DNA from: Phaeotremella fagi
Taxonomy: Eukaryota > Basidiomycota > Tremellomycetes > Tremellales > Phaeotremellaceae
Direction of reading: 5' to 3'
Assembly (NCBI GenBank): GCA_001599715.1
Contig: BCHU01000005.1
Span: 372,001-436,000, forward strand
Length of the DNA stretch: 64,000 nucleotides
Shown piece by piece: positions 19,993 through 27,308 of the stretch. The position numbers and the translations under genes were made by a program. The notes under the pieces were generated by a model. That model saw only the letters and a list, made by a program, of their open reading frames with translations. It did not search any database and was not told the origin of the DNA. Numbering within the stretch: position 1 is the first letter of the stretch; each line of letters starts with the position of its first letter.

Positions 19993-22551
19993 TTAAGCGG
20001 CAATCTCCTGTAAACCCAATCTTCTCGGTGTTCTCATCTCCACAACATCAATATCGACGTCCACATCCACATCATCATTGTCAATCTTCGAATTATCCTC
20101 CGCCTCTCTGGCAGAAATCTCCAACTGTCGACGTCTCCATTCAAGATTAACAGCAATCAACCAAGATCGAATAAGTGTCGCATGTCTTCTTCTTAATTCT
20201 CTCAACTTCTCCTTTTCACTGAAACTTAATGGTGAACCAGAGAAACTCGAGATAGGAGGTAAACGAAGATCGTTATCTGGTACAGGTGAACTTCGCATAC
20301 TGACACTAGGTGAAATGCCTCTTTCACCACCACCTAATTCTAATCTTTTGACATCACGTATGAGATCATCAGTATGTCTCTTTGTTGGTAATTGACGTTG
20401 TAAAGTTGAAGGTGAAGATGAAGCAGAGTCAGTTCGGAATTGACCAAGTCGTTGAAGTGATGGTAAATCTTCGTGGATCTCATGAGTTCCAGTGATAGCT
20501 GGTAGTTTGAGATTTGGGTCGGCTTGATCATCTGTTAAAATCAATGCTTTAACCGTCATCGTTGGTGTCGTTGCTTCTTCCTCTTCTTCGAGATCCTCCA
20601 TTTCCTCAGGTTCCTCAACTTCGTCATCGTCATCCAGACCTGTTCTCTCTGATGATTCTCTCACTCGACTTGACATCGCAGCTCCAAGTGGTTGAACATG
20701 TCTGTAAGCCTTTTTATAGAAATTGTTGGTGGCGAGAGTAGCTTCAGGTAAACTGTTTCGACCATCATTTTCCAGTGAGTCAAAGTTGGAATAACTAGAG
20801 TTGGCGGGGAATTCATGATGAACATTGTTGAATGTCGTTTGACCCATGTTGTACATGTTTGACATCCCCTGTGATCGTGACGGTAAAGCCGATTGTGAAT
20901 TGTTTCTTGGTAAACTTGCAATGGTCCTCTTACCGATGTCGCTGAACGAATCGGAACGACTGTGACGTTGAGGAGCGAACGAATCAAGACTTGGATAAAG
21001 TCCACCGAATGAAACGTTGGTGTCGGGTAGAGGAAGTGAAGTCGCCATATGAATGTTGTTGTGGTTGTTGTCATCCATACCTGGGATAGGAATTCCCGGT
21101 AAACCTGCTAGACCTAATGAAGCGAGTTCCTCTGGGTTGAATAGATCTTCCACGGCACTAGCATCGGAAAGCGGAGAACCAGAATGTCCAGAAGAAGCAC
21201 CGCTGTGAGAATGGTGGTGGCCCATGGTGAAACCAGGATTGAAGGGTGTGTTATTAACACCGGCGGTATCTCTACCTAACGAAATCATAAACTGATTGAA
21301 CATTGCCAAATCGGCTTCAGTTTTTAATTCGGGTAGTGAGAATTGAGGAGCAGGGGCTGCTTGAGAATTGTAGGTAGGTAAAGATGGGTAGTTCGGTAGG
21401 GATGGTTGTAAAGATTGACCGAAATGACCGATTGGATTTGATAATGAAGGGTAGCTAGGTAATGATGGAGGGATAAGAGCATTGAGACGATGCATCATAT
21501 CTGTTAATAGTCAGTTTCAATCTTCATTAAACTCTGAAGGCGACTTACCAGCATCATAAACAGGTTCCACCTTTCTCTTCTTCATATCAGCCAAGAATCG
21601 ATCGAAGCCCTCCATCTCCTCGTCCTGCGAGTTTCCACGTTTAGATCCAGCCTTGATCAGTCCCTCACTGGCGAGTTGAGCCGCCATAGCTTGATTCTGT
21701 TGCTGCTGCATCCCTAATTGTTGAAGTACCATCCATTCTCTTTGTTGATAAGCAAACAGTTCTTCCGCCTGTTTACGATGTAAAGCGGCTAAATTCGATG
21801 GAATGGATGTTTGACCGTTCTGCGTGAGAGGTGGTAGTAATCGATCATAAGGTGAAGATGGATTCAGGTTCGATCTGGAAGAAGAGGACGACGGGGAAAG
21901 TGACATCTCTGCTGGAGATCGAGGAACTTCAAGTCCACTGGATAGACGTCTGTCTGATTGCGAAATAACACGTGAATTGAATTCTGGATCATGGGATGTA
22001 GCAGCTTTACTGAGTTTATGGATCTGATGATGTTCTTGGGTATGGATTCTTTCATGTTTTTTAAGATCCTGAGGACGTTTGAAAGTCTTGCCGCAAACAC
22101 CACAAGGATGAGGTTTAAGTGGGGTGTGAACTACGTAGTCGATGAGTAACGGTTCCAAATTTTCTAAAATCGTCGAAAACAATAACATACCTCGTAAATG
22201 ACTAGTGATATGATCACGTTTAATGCATTTCGTACCACAGTTCTCCCAAGCACAAGTCAAACAAAGATTATTCGTGGATTTACGACCGATATGGATGTTA
22301 CATAAATGATCATAAAGTTCATCAGGTGAAGAAGATATATGAGAACAATCCTTCCATTTACATTCGATAGATTCATCTGTTGCTGATACGTTTGACGATC
22401 TTCTGTTGGTTTCAAGATCGATTTGTTCGTTGTCAGAAAGTTCATTCTTCTGATATGGCATTGTTGGGGTGACTGGTTCGACTGAACTTGCTGAACCTGA
22501 TGATGGGGGAGCGTGGAGATATGTTGATGTTGGTAAAGAAGGGTACGACAT
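19993..22551 (-). CDS. RIM101: pH-response transcription factor Rim101/PacC
   Basis: Three exons (22551-22191, 22130-21549, 21500-19993) encode 816 residues. Three C2H2 fingers span residues ~64-150: CKWKDC...[42 protein letters not shown], and [23 protein letters not shown], the PacC/Rim101 set. The long C-terminus is Ser/Pro-rich with an acidic Glu run and a final basic/acidic tail. Four YPSL motifs occur (residues 3, 331, 352, 483); YPx(L/I) is the known docking signal for the Bro1-domain protein Rim20/PalA in alkaline-pH proteolytic activation. Known role: alkaline-pH, cation and cell-wall gene control. Its own upstream region has a cluster of Rim101-type sites (22930-23002), implying auto-regulation. 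Start 22551 is the first ATG and supplies the first YPSL. Confidence 0.92.
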
Positions 22552-22929: not shown

Positions 22930-23002
22930 GCCAAGGGGCCAAGAGTCAAAGGAAGGCCAAGAGCCAAGGGAAGGGGAAGCTAGGGTGTCTTGGCACCTTG
23001 GC
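22930..23002. promoter_or_regulatory. cluster of six GCCAAG (PacC/Rim101 core) sites
   Basis: Exact GCCAAG at 22930-22935, 22938-22943, 22956-22961 and 22963-22968 on the plus strand. Exact CTTGGC (same site on the minus strand) at 22989-22994 and 22997-23002. GCCARG is the established PacC/Rim101 recognition core. The cluster is 379-451 bp upstream of the rim101 start and 573-645 bp upstream of the divergent secreted-protein gene, so it may serve both. Confidence 0.75.
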
Positions 23003-23370: not shown

Positions 23371-23380
23371 GTATATAAGA
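23371..23380 (+). promoter_or_regulatory. TATA-like box of the secreted repeat gene
   Basis: The string GTATATAAGA lies 195-204 bp upstream of the ATG at 23575. A consensus-like TATA box suits a regulated or strongly expressed gene. The transcription start is not known. Confidence 0.5.
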
Positions 23381-23574: not shown

Positions 23575-24887
23575 ATGGCTAGAATTCAACATCTCTTAGC
23601 TCTGATCTTCCTTCTCCCATTCTTAATCAACGGGTTAGTCGTTCCTCAAATCCAAAGATCAACCGGTGCTTTAACCGACGGTAAACCATGCCATGAAGTC
23701 AGTATCAATCTCGTACTTCAAACACCTATATCTATACTAACGAAATCGCCCACATTAGGTCACGGCTAGACACCAAATTCGTCAAGTCGACACAGCAGCC
23801 GTTGCTGAAGCTACCGTAAGTCCACAAATTCAAACAACAACTGAGCGAGAAAAAAAGGATACCGTTGCAACTTCAGCTGTAGAAGTGAGTGAAACCAACT
23901 AATGTCATAAATTTATCTGACAATAGCTATTTAGGCTAGTGCAACCGACACCGCTGCCGCCGCAGCTGAAACAGCAGCAGCTCCCGATTCACCAGCAGGT
24001 GAAATAGCAGGTCTTATAGGAGGTCAAGCAGCCGCCGATAAAGCCAACACAATCGCTGCAGGTATCAAGAACGCTATCGCTGGTATCAAAACTGAAATCG
24101 CCAACGCTAAAGCAGAAAAAGCTGCAGCCGCAGCTGGAGCTGGAGCTGGAGCTGAACAACCAGCTGTAAGTTCATGTTCAAATAGTTTAGTTACATCAAA
24201 TATGTGTTCATCACTGACAGAGTTCTCTGTAGACTGCAGCTGCTAAACGACACGAAGAGATGGAAAGAGATTATGATGACCTTCATGAACTTCTCGAACG
24301 TGATCCCAATCCCAACCCACAAATACTAGCTAAAATCAAAGCGAAGATCGCAGCTATCAAAGCGAAGATCCAAGCTGCAAAAGCCGCCAAAGCCGCTGCA
24401 GCTGGTACAGCTGTAAGTCCATTCCTTTGATCTGTTTAACTGTATAAGTACTGACGTACTATACTTGTAACCAGGCAGCTAAACGTGACGAACTCGATGA
24501 CGACGAAAGTGAACTCAACGCTTTAGCTCAACGTGACCCTAACCCACAAATTCTCGCCAAGATCAAAGCTAAAATCGCAGCTATCAAAGCAAAGATCCAA
24601 GCTGCAAAAGCCGCCAAAGCCGCTGCAGCTGGTACAGCTGTAAGTCCTTCCCATCCAATGCTTCAAATGTTTTATAAATACTGATGTAACGTACGTGTAA
24701 ACAGGCAGCTAAACGTGACGAACTCGATGACGACGAAAGTGAACTTAACGCTTTGGTCCAACGTGATCCTAACCCCAACCCACAAATTCTCGCTAAGATC
24801 AAAGCTAAAATTGCTGCTATTAAAGCGAAGATCCAAGCTGCGAAGGCTGCTAAGGCTGCTGCTGCTGGTACTGCTGCAGCAGCTTGA
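23575..24887 (+). CDS. secreted tandem-repeat precursor, candidate Kex2-processed amphipathic peptide protein
   Basis: Six exons (23575-23697, 23759-23884, 23935-24165, 24233-24412, 24475-24639, 24705-24887) give 335 residues. Residues 1-20 are a signal peptide (MARIQHLLALIFLLPFLING). Exons 4, 5 and 6 each encode one module: AAKR (Kex2-type site), an acidic stretch (DELDDDESELNAL or a variant), a lone Arg, DPNP or DPNPNP, then an Ile/Lys/Ala helix starting QILAKIKAKIAAIKAKIQAA. Exon 3 encodes a diverged, K/A/I-rich relative. All these exons begin and end in phase 0. Known parallels: Kex2-processed repeat proteins of fungi, and cationic-peptide precursors with acidic pro-segments and X-Pro dipeptides trimmed by dipeptidyl aminopeptidase. 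I recognise no homologue; it could instead be a structural wall or surface protein. Exon 2's right part (23817-23884) could also be spliced out in frame. Confidence 0.75.
24233..24887 (+). repeat. three tandem exon-sized coding modules
   Basis: Modules at 24233-24412, 24475-24639 and 24705-24887 encode near-identical 55-60-residue units. The helical core is almost unchanged at protein level. Modules 1 and 2 share nearly identical DNA over their 3' ends and into the donor (gtaagtcc). Modules 2 and 3 share their 5' acidic part, and the introns before them (24413-24474 and 24640-24704) are also alike. This points to duplication of an intron-plus-exon unit with later gene conversion. Confidence 0.85.
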
Positions 24888-25193: not shown

Positions 25194-27308
25194 CTACGAA
25201 AATCTACTTGAAATTCCATTTTGTTCCCCACGATTTCCAACTCCCTTTCCATAACGATCCTGATCTTCCCCATCACCTAACTTCCACCCCATCAACCGTT
25301 CACTACCTAATAGATTGAAGGCCATAATTCTTTGTGAGAAACGACGGGTCTAGATAATTGTCAGTCATTATTCTTTAGTGTTTCTCTCCAACACTCACTC
25401 GATCTTTTTGGAGATTGGGGCATGGATAGATCCATGAGTTGGGATTCCTTCGACCTAATCATTTATGTATCAGTATTGCTATCAAGACTGATGAAAAACC
25501 TACACGATGGAAACCGTTCAAATTCTTATGAAGAGTGATTTGGAAGACTGAAGCTGATCCTTGACTATTTAGAGAATTAATTTTCTGCTATTTCATACTT
25601 AAGTCTCGGAAACAACATACCGAGAGGCACTATGAACAAGCGTCAGTTGATGGTTTCTTTAATCGACAACCACGTAACTCACATGACGGAATAAGCCAAG
25701 AAGTAGAGCCAGATTCTGTACCATCTGATACCGTAAGCGGCGACAACCTTGTCCTCGTTAGATTTCCAGTTCAAATACCAACGATGAAGAGTGGCAGAGT
25801 AGTGAACACCCAAAACATCAACTGATTTGACTTCAAAGTTGGCTTGTTCGAGCTGAACGGCGTTAGCTTCATTTCCTTTTGCAGGAGAGGACAAACTTAC
25901 CTTGGTGATAACCCAACCAAGAGGGAGGGAGGCATCAGCACCGGGGAAAACGTATTTGTTCATGCTGGAACGAGATCAGTTCACAACGAAAGCAAGAGAC
26001 TGAGATTTAACATACAACAAACCCCAATTCAAATCCTCGTATTGCCAATTAGTTCTAATACCAGCAACCTGGAAAACCAAAATTCCATCATCTGCCAAAA
26101 GATCGTAAACCTCTTTAAGGAACGTTGGGTAACGTCTGATACCGACATGTTCTGCCATTTCCAAACATGAAATCTTGTTGAAGTAACCTTTTGAGTGGGG
26201 GATTTCACGATAATCCATACAGAGGATTCGACCTTGGGATTCTGGAATGTCGTTCTCACGTAGACGTTGGGTACCGAATGCAGTTTGTTCTCTTGCCAAC
26301 GTGACTGTTTTTGTTTGTCAGGCATTGATCATCAATCAAGGTAAGATGGAACTTACCACCAGTAACGTCGGCACCGTAATTCTTTGCAGCGAATGTAGCG
26401 AGTGTACCCCAACCACAACCGATATCGAGCATTTTATCACCAGCTTTCAAATCAAGTTTCTCACAGACCATGGTCAATTTGTTATCTTGAAGTTCTTCCA
26501 GAGTTTCCATCTTGTTGATATCAGTGATAACACCTGAAGTGTAAATCATACGTGGTCCAAGGAACCAAGAATAGAAATCGTTACCACGGTCGTAATGGTC
26601 TCTAACTTGCTCTTCATCTTGTGATTGTGAGTGCATGATGACATCTGGGATGAGGTTGACGAAAACGTATCTGAAAAGCTGGAGTGCAAGGTCGTTAGCA
26701 AAGATGAATCAACAGAATTATGAATCAAAAACCTACCTCCGGAGTAAAAGCGAAACTAGCCCAATCATGTCTATATTCCATGACATCCAAAACATCCCCC
26801 TTAAACTCAATCTTCCCATCAAAATACAAATCATGAGCGATCTGCATAGGGATTTTTTTACCAGTCCATTTCTTGATCAACTCCTCGTTACCTTTGAAAT
26901 CGAGATAGTAATCAATGGGTTTACCAGGTAAAGGAACTTTCTCGTTGATCCTTGAACCTATTCTTGACATGACTGCCCAATAGGCTATACAGGTTGGGAC
27001 GAAGGTTAGGATTAACAGGAAGAAATAGAATTTCCATGATGATTTGAAGAAGGGGATGAATTTTTGGAGAATCCAGGGGACTAGGATGACGGAGATTGCT
27101 AGATGGTAGTTGGAGAATGAGGCTGATCCTTCGGCTGGGAGTGGGGGGTTGGCAATCGCTGGATAAGATGTACTGCGAGATGGTCAGTTCTGATCGATTC
27201 GACTTGGGATCATGATGGAGATGGCATGACGGATGATGAGACTTACGTTTTGAATGATGGTGTTGGAGTAGTGACAACTTCTGGACCCGCTGGAATTGGA
27301 TCTGACAT
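25194..27308 (-). CDS. SMT1: sphingolipid C9-methyltransferase (cyclopropane-synthase-like)
   Basis: Adds the C9 methyl branch to the long-chain base of fungal glucosylceramide, at the ER. Seen: N-terminal MSDPIPAGPEVVTTP, then two close hydrophobic segments (SNYHLAISVILVPWILQKF and FYFFLLILTFVPTCIAYWA). A domain then typical of the Mycolic-acid/cyclopropane-fatty-acid synthase family: RDHYDRGNDFYSWFLGPRM, SAM motif DIGCGWGTLATFAAK, NDIPESQGRILCMDYREI, EMAEHVG, and the terminal DVLGVHYSATLHRWYLNW. The membrane anchor plus this domain is the signature of fungal C9-methyltransferases rather than bacterial cyclopropane synthases. At least eight introns; the last residues (FSQRIMAFNLLG... to the stop at 25194) were read through the final splice by hand. 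The start is the first ATG before the anchor. Confidence 0.88.

Follow-up and report, generated by a model that had tools for sequence, protein, structure and literature searches.

The gene at positions 23575..24887 on the plus strand of the 64-kb window (the whole stretch of Phaeotremella fagi DNA analysed here, 64,000 nucleotides) encodes a 335-residue precursor that, by its architecture, is a Kex2-processed repeat protein (KEP) of variant layout, with its X-Pro dipeptides placed behind an acidic pro-part and one Arg rather than behind the KR. We favour, tentatively and without calling it probable, the reading that this protein is a secreted tandem precursor of the KEP class from which a cationic core would be freed in two steps, trimmed to an N-terminal Gln, and act on membranes or surfaces.

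Gene model and repeat architecture

The coding region consists of six exons joined by GT..AG introns in phase 0, and this model reproduced both the extent and the length of 335 residues given in the original prediction. Exon 1 (23575..23697) encodes the hydrophobic N-terminus and the start of a pro-region, which continues in exon 2 (23759..23884). Another possible end of exon 2, at 23815, would give a protein of 312 instead of 335 residues and leaves the modules the same. Exon 3 (23935..24165) encodes an Ala-rich part of the pro-region that holds a diverged fourth core and has neither KR nor DPNP. Judged by hydropathy, as were membrane spans, the N-terminal stretch is the sole strongly hydrophobic segment of the precursor (15-residue mean of 2.55, with a best value of 0.97 beyond residue 30). 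This stretch is probably a signal peptide and the protein is probably secreted; it contains one Cys.

The last three exons, also on the plus strand, each encode one module of 53-56 residues, as read from translation and charge counts: KR, HEEMERDYDDLHELLER, DPNPNP, and the core in module 1 (exon 4, 24233..24412); KR, DELDDDESELNALAQR, DPNP, and the core in module 2 (exon 5, 24475..24639); and KR, DELDDDESELNALVQR, DPNPNP, the core, and the stop codon in module 3 (exon 6, 24705..24887). The repeat order of KR, acidic stretch, (E/Q)R, DPNP(NP), and cationic segment that had been claimed for this gene was found in 3/3 modules. KR occurs in the precursor at residues 165, 223, and 278 only, and KK occurs once, at residue 73. 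Each module opens with AAKR, after which comes the acidic segment, 16-17 residues long and with (E/Q)R at its end. The spacer consists of whole X-Pro pairs and varies among the modules by exactly one dipeptide, and the Arg before it and the Gln after it are kept in all three modules. The 31-residue core, QILAKIKAKIAAIKAKIQAAKAAKAAAAGTA, is identical in the three modules, and its seven basic residues are all Lys. Arg is confined in the repeat region to the three KR sites, the three pre-spacer sites, and one further position in module 1. With termini and His ignored, every module carries a charge of -6 in its acidic part, -1 in its spacer, and +7 in its core, and the sum of exactly zero in 3/3 modules agrees with the earlier proposal that the acidic segments offset the cationic core.

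Core codons differ at 7 of 31 positions between modules 1 and 2, at 16 between modules 1 and 3, and at 13 between modules 2 and 3, and every one of these differences is synonymous (the module 1 core counts 23.7 synonymous and 69.3 non-synonymous sites). The acidic part, by contrast, has changed between modules 1 and 2 at 11 of the 16 residues compared, more than the core has (Fisher P = 2.5e-7). Modules 2 and 3 differ at 1/16 residues of this part, so its fast change rests on module 1. By this pattern of divergence, the acidic part behaves like a discarded pro-part and the core like a retained product. The conservation compared here is between copies inside one gene, to which gene conversion could contribute, though many synonymous differences remain. 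Introns 4 and 5, which follow modules 1 and 2, are identical at 44/62 positions, and this resemblance suggests that the modules arose by an old duplication of exon plus intron. Together, the synonymous codon differences and the intron divergence imply that the duplications are not recent and that the protein sequence of the core has been held constant.

The decayed core in exon 3, IAAGIKNAIAGIKTEIANAKAEKAAAAAGA, aligns with the intact core over 30 residues without gaps, and 18 of these are identical. All five of its Ile align with core Ile, and its four Lys fall on four of the seven core Lys. None of 4000 shuffles of exon 3 reached the score of this alignment. In the decayed copy, the Ile spine has, to judge by the alignment, outlasted the cationic charge. 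A 21-base tandem repeat lies at 24061-24101, within the decayed core; the intact cores in modules 1 and 2 have the same 7-residue period. The original prediction for this gene included neither the decayed fourth core, nor the X-Pro dipeptidyl-peptidase ladder, nor the PacC-like neighbour described below.

Release of the core and shape of the product

In the favoured two-step reading, kexin in the Golgi would cut after each KR. A kexin-like gene is present in the genome, on the same contig outside the window (L022 588-3636; G000 C5), and encodes an S8 domain, a P-domain, and, by eye, a C-terminal hydrophobic anchor. The KR cuts alone would free a charge-neutral hairpin of 53-56 residues, and release of the core needs a further cut after a single Arg. 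In the freed module, predicted as acidic helix, turn, and basic helix, the +7 core would be kept silent by the -6 of the acidic part together with the -1 of the spacer. We propose that the module is cut again behind its conserved (E/Q)R because this Arg is invariant though the basic residues of the core are all Lys, because the stretch from Arg to Gln is made of whole X-Pro pairs in 3/3 modules and varies by one, because the residue after the spacer is Gln, and because the preceding segment behaves like a discarded pro-part. Such a cut, which could be a monobasic one by kexin or the work of a yapsin-like protease, would bare DP-NP-(NP). A dipeptidyl peptidase of the Ste13/DPP IV type could then strip the X-Pro pairs and would halt at Gln-Ile, and the exposed N-terminal Gln could cyclise to pyroglutamate. 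The product would be a Lys/Ile/Ala helix of 33-34 residues, QILAKIKAKIAAIKAKIQAAKAAKAAAAGTAAA(A), acting on membranes or surfaces. This logic would be that of promelittin, with three copies per precursor.

One DPP IV-type gene was found in the genome, with a Peptidase_S9 domain and an N-terminal hydrophobic anchor (by eye, in one frame), and S10 carboxypeptidases gave 12 matches in three genome regions. The kexin, dipeptidyl peptidase, and S10 genes encode general fungal enzymes, and their presence permits the processing model without proving it. All three pre-spacer cut sites have Leu four residues ahead of the cut, a residue that kexin is said to favour at this position. Kexin cuts poorly when P2 is Glu or Gln, which counts against it as the enzyme that acts at (E/Q)R. 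Parallels to the proposed steps are reported in excerpts of a study of Coprinopsis: KEPs of this fungus expressed in Pichia were cut after a single Arg and lost XA/XP pairs, and pyro-Gln KEP peptides were confirmed in Coprinopsis itself (PMC9769878). The confirmed peptides persisted in the kex knockout strains tested there, and the same paper weighs three KEX2 homologues (PMC9769878). This persistence counts against a firm assignment of the protease, even in Coprinopsis.

AlphaFold models of module 1, run with the three modules as alignment, show helix, turn at the DPNPNP spacer, and helix (best pLDDT of 85.5; five models, 73.4-85.5), and models of module 2 from its single sequence likewise show helix-turn-helix with the turn at the spacer (best pLDDT of 85.4; five models, 72.9-85.4). 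These runs covered modules 1 and 2 only, with a pTM of just 0.56-0.59 and a less certain C-terminal Ala-rich end. The claim that Ile residues 2, 6, 10, 13, and 17 of the helix form one narrow face was borne out: on a helical wheel they take up 80 degrees (P = 0.004 against random positions), bordered on either side by Lys. The further claim of a textbook amphipathic helix was overstated. Since Ala occupies the far face, the 20-residue core has a helical hydrophobic moment no higher than that of its shuffles on two scales (Eisenberg moment of 0.225, P = 0.48; Wimley-White, P = 0.21) and only weakly higher on a third (Fauchere-Pliska, P = 0.085). This 20-mer shows its strongest hydrophobic periodicity at a strand-like 165 degrees (moment of 0.63, P = 0.017), a signal that weakens when all 31 residues are taken (P = 0.11) and when the decayed core is (P = 0.28). 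Helix formation is cheap for the core, at a mean cost of 0.21-0.22 on the Pace-Scholtz scale. The core is fairly described as a cationic helix on which Ile forms a narrow face, with some chance that the peptide forms strands instead. The original interpretation is supported as to the Kex2-type repeat precursor, its charge-matched acidic parts, and the suitable proteases encoded in the genome; textbook amphipathicity is not supported by the hydrophobic moment.

Other readings differ in whether the precursor is cut, where, and to what end. If only the KR sites were used, the mature product would be the whole neutral helical hairpin of 53-56 residues, with acidic and basic arms joined at the DPNP(NP) turn, acting or self-assembling as such. 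This outcome would be consistent with KR as the canonical site, with the helix-turn-helix predicted at a best-model pLDDT of about 85 in both runs, with a net charge of exactly zero in 3/3 modules, and with the longer KEP peptides reported for yeast-like basidiomycetes (PMC6339444, in excerpt). We consider it somewhat unlikely, given that the acidic arm of module 1 has diverged from that of module 2 and the core has not, that a plain turn would need neither whole X-Pro steps nor an invariant preceding Arg, and that a fold search with the module 1 model gave 47 matches, none at E 0.001 or better. The opposite case, an uncleaved Ala/Lys-rich structural or stress protein that is secreted and in which the KR motifs are incidental, is highly improbable. 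It would have to account for one KR per module at the same place in 3/3 modules and none elsewhere, and for the kexin gene, even though Ala-rich modules predicted to be helical, a single Cys, a long N-terminal pro-region, and a Pfam yield of weak helical look-alikes only would all suit such a protein.

Two further alternatives accept release of the core and give it another role. The released Lys/Ile/Ala segments might be surface or wall peptides in the manner of Rep1, assembling on the outside of the cell in the form of amphipathic strands; Rep1 is itself a KEP, and its peptides build amyloid-like fibrils (PMC9769878 and PMC6339444, in excerpts). We regard this as improbable: the strand-like top period of the 20-residue core (165 degrees, P = 0.017) argues for it, but that signal fades over 31 residues and in the decayed core, AlphaFold predicts helix at a low helix cost, and Rep1 is reported in the excerpted text of PMC6339444 to lack the STE13 signature. 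Alternatively, the trimmed peptide could be a diffusible, pheromone-like receptor ligand, as proposed for other X-Pro/X-Ala basidiomycete KEPs. A core of 33-34 residues that is strongly cationic and of low complexity compares poorly with the pheromones of 9-24 residues quoted in PMC6339444 and makes this very improbable, although the spacer resembles a dipeptidyl-peptidase ladder and Le Marquer et al. rate KEPs with the STE13 signature as good candidates for peptide hormones (PMC6339444, in excerpt).

Upstream region and neighbouring genes

The precursor gene shares its upstream region with a divergent gene for a C2H2 zinc-finger protein (21517..22551, minus strand, ATG at 22551), which has Pfam C2H2 and Zap1_zf1 matches above cut-off. 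Its fingers carry what we take to be a PacC/Rim101 signature. The open frame at 19993-21510 on the minus strand is possibly the C-terminal part of this PacC-like gene, which would then have several exons over two long frames. The fingers gave 6 matches in the genome, 2 of them the gene itself; the next best is 40% identical and looks Zap1-like by eye (L028 616-1818, on the same contig). Against the PDB, generic C2H2 proteins were among the best 60 of 157 matches. On the precursor side, TATATAAG at 23372..23379 on the plus strand, about 200 bases ahead of the start codon, is a motif match that we take to be a possible TATA box. A CMAS-type methyltransferase gene (25679-26708, minus strand), perhaps for a sphingolipid C9-methyltransferase, is convergent with the precursor gene and has no evident link to it.

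The common upstream region contains six GCCAAG hexamers at 22930..23002, four on the plus and two on the minus strand, which match the PacC core motif GCCARG (PMC10455529, in excerpt). The window of 64 kb holds 26 GCCAAG in total, and 100 first-order Markov sequences contained at most 2 per 100 bases. Among 2078 hexamer classes, 8 reach six per 100 bases somewhere in the window, and the others of these are simple-repeat words. A genome search for three close GCCAAG on the same strand, with gaps of 1-30, found them here and at a single other site, C11:793076 (3 matches, 2 of them overlapping here), and gave 0 matches on the reverse strand and 0 in the control. The cluster partly overlaps an 18-base tandem repeat, and local duplication therefore helped to make it. 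It lies 379-451 bases from the start codon of the PacC-like gene compared to 573-645 bases from that of the precursor, and may serve autoregulation of the PacC-like gene alone. With a promoter region common to both genes, pH control of the precursor would be possible. The full version of this scheme, a fungal tandem promelittin-like system with a charge-balanced inhibitor in each module, monobasic release, an X-Pro timing ladder, a pyroglutamate-capped helix, a six-site promoter driven by PacC/Rim101, and pH-triggered release, is in our estimate decidedly unlikely to hold in all its parts.

Relatives and comparison with known systems

When the genome of the same fungus (22.6 Mb, 24 contigs) was queried with the module, 6 candidates were scored and 3 matched, which are modules 1 to 3 of the precursor gene itself; because this query overlooked the decayed copy in exon 3, it could also have passed over distant copies at other sites. 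A match to the KR-DPNP pattern elsewhere in the genome (L004) was rejected as antisense to an open frame of 949 residues. Allowing one mismatch, the (R/S)-DPNP pattern gave 15 matches compared to 3 in the control; the sole exact one was module 2, and 14 had one mismatch. Pattern scans of genome_contigs (140 matches) and viral_contigs (231 matches) gave none that could be confirmed, which says little in collections not built of fungal genomes. Pfam returned 13 weak matches to the precursor at E up to 1, with no melittin family model among them. REST_helical (27.2 bits against a cut-off of 27, with no single stretch passing) and ATG17_like (E = 0.002, under its cut-off) were both taken as matches of helix or composition. 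In the PDB sequence search, the best of 8 matches was MxiH at E = 0.12, and several others were designed helical proteins. Four strings of core plus spacer had no match in the literature searched.

Published definitions of KEPs place the precursor in or at the edge of the class. Le Marquer et al. ask, in the excerpted rules, for at least four fragments at KR/RR and at least three repeats over at least 15% of the protein (PMC6339444); here the fragments measure 144, 58, 55, and 56 residues (from residue 23 on and with KR included), and the three modules of 53-56 residues fill nearly half of 335. The same pipeline also asks for a secretion signal and for a protein outside the membrane; on these points hydropathy shows the one strong N-terminal stretch (2.55) and a next best value of 0.97. 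The rules of Umemura, likewise as excerpted, call for at least 3 repeats, each 8-100 residues long and bounded by dibasic sites, with no separated piece longer than 100 residues (PMC7329392). By these, the precursor is borderline: its third repeat ends at the C-terminus, and the N-terminal fragment of 144 residues drops under 100 only when the KK at 73 is taken as a site, a reading that requires the long exon 2. The STE13-signature rule looks for X-Pro or X-Ala right after the dibasic site, a place that HE or DE takes here. The X-Pro ladder comes after (E/Q)R, 16-17 residues past KR, and the precursor is therefore not a canonical STE13-signature KEP. Excerpts of PMC7329392 report few KEPs for Tremellomycetes (1.00 per strain) and describe KEP type #26, comprising 35 KEPs from Talaromyces and Cryptococcus, listed with P-7, as having multiple D; compared by description alone, this type might be related to the precursor. 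KEPs are widespread in fungi, and their functions are described as largely unknown (PMC9769878, in excerpt).

The precursor resembles KEPs, as these are described in excerpts of PMC6339444, PMC7329392, and PMC9769878, in its hydrophobic leader, its tandem near-identical modules separated by KR, and the kexin in its genome. Unlike them, each of its modules of 53-56 residues carries its own acidic pro-part, a single Arg, an X-Pro ladder, and then the core, with a charge of zero in 3/3 modules. Ascomycete alpha-factor precursors and basidiomycete KEPs with the STE13 signature are likewise described with X-Pro dipeptides in variable number ahead of the core. In contrast to these, the ladder here follows (E/Q)R and not KR, and the core is 33-34 residues long, cationic, and of low complexity. 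Ece1 of Candida, in the excerpted description, has a signal peptide and seven KR motifs and is processed by kexin and then Kex1 to candidalysin, an amphipathic peptide that damages membranes (PMC5784256); by that description, the precursor differs in having three identical and strongly cationic cores paired with acidic segments. Rep1 of Ustilago maydis is also a basidiomycete Kex2-cut repeat protein with amphipathic peptides. Unlike Rep1, described in excerpt with amyloid-like fibrils and without the STE13 signature, the precursor has a core predicted to be helical.

The layout is best taken, as we infer it, as a variant of the KEP class with a promelittin-like mechanism. Promelittin of bee venom has an acidic pro-part that is removed stepwise as dipeptides to leave a cationic helix. 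The likeness is one of working and not of kinship, and the precursor differs in its three copies and its kexin sites. If the two-step reading is true, the fungus would make a self-silencing cationic peptide in tandem, with the single Arg, the length of the ladder, and the promoter with PacC-type sites as experimental handles, and it would have converged independently on the dipeptide-ladder trick of bee venom.
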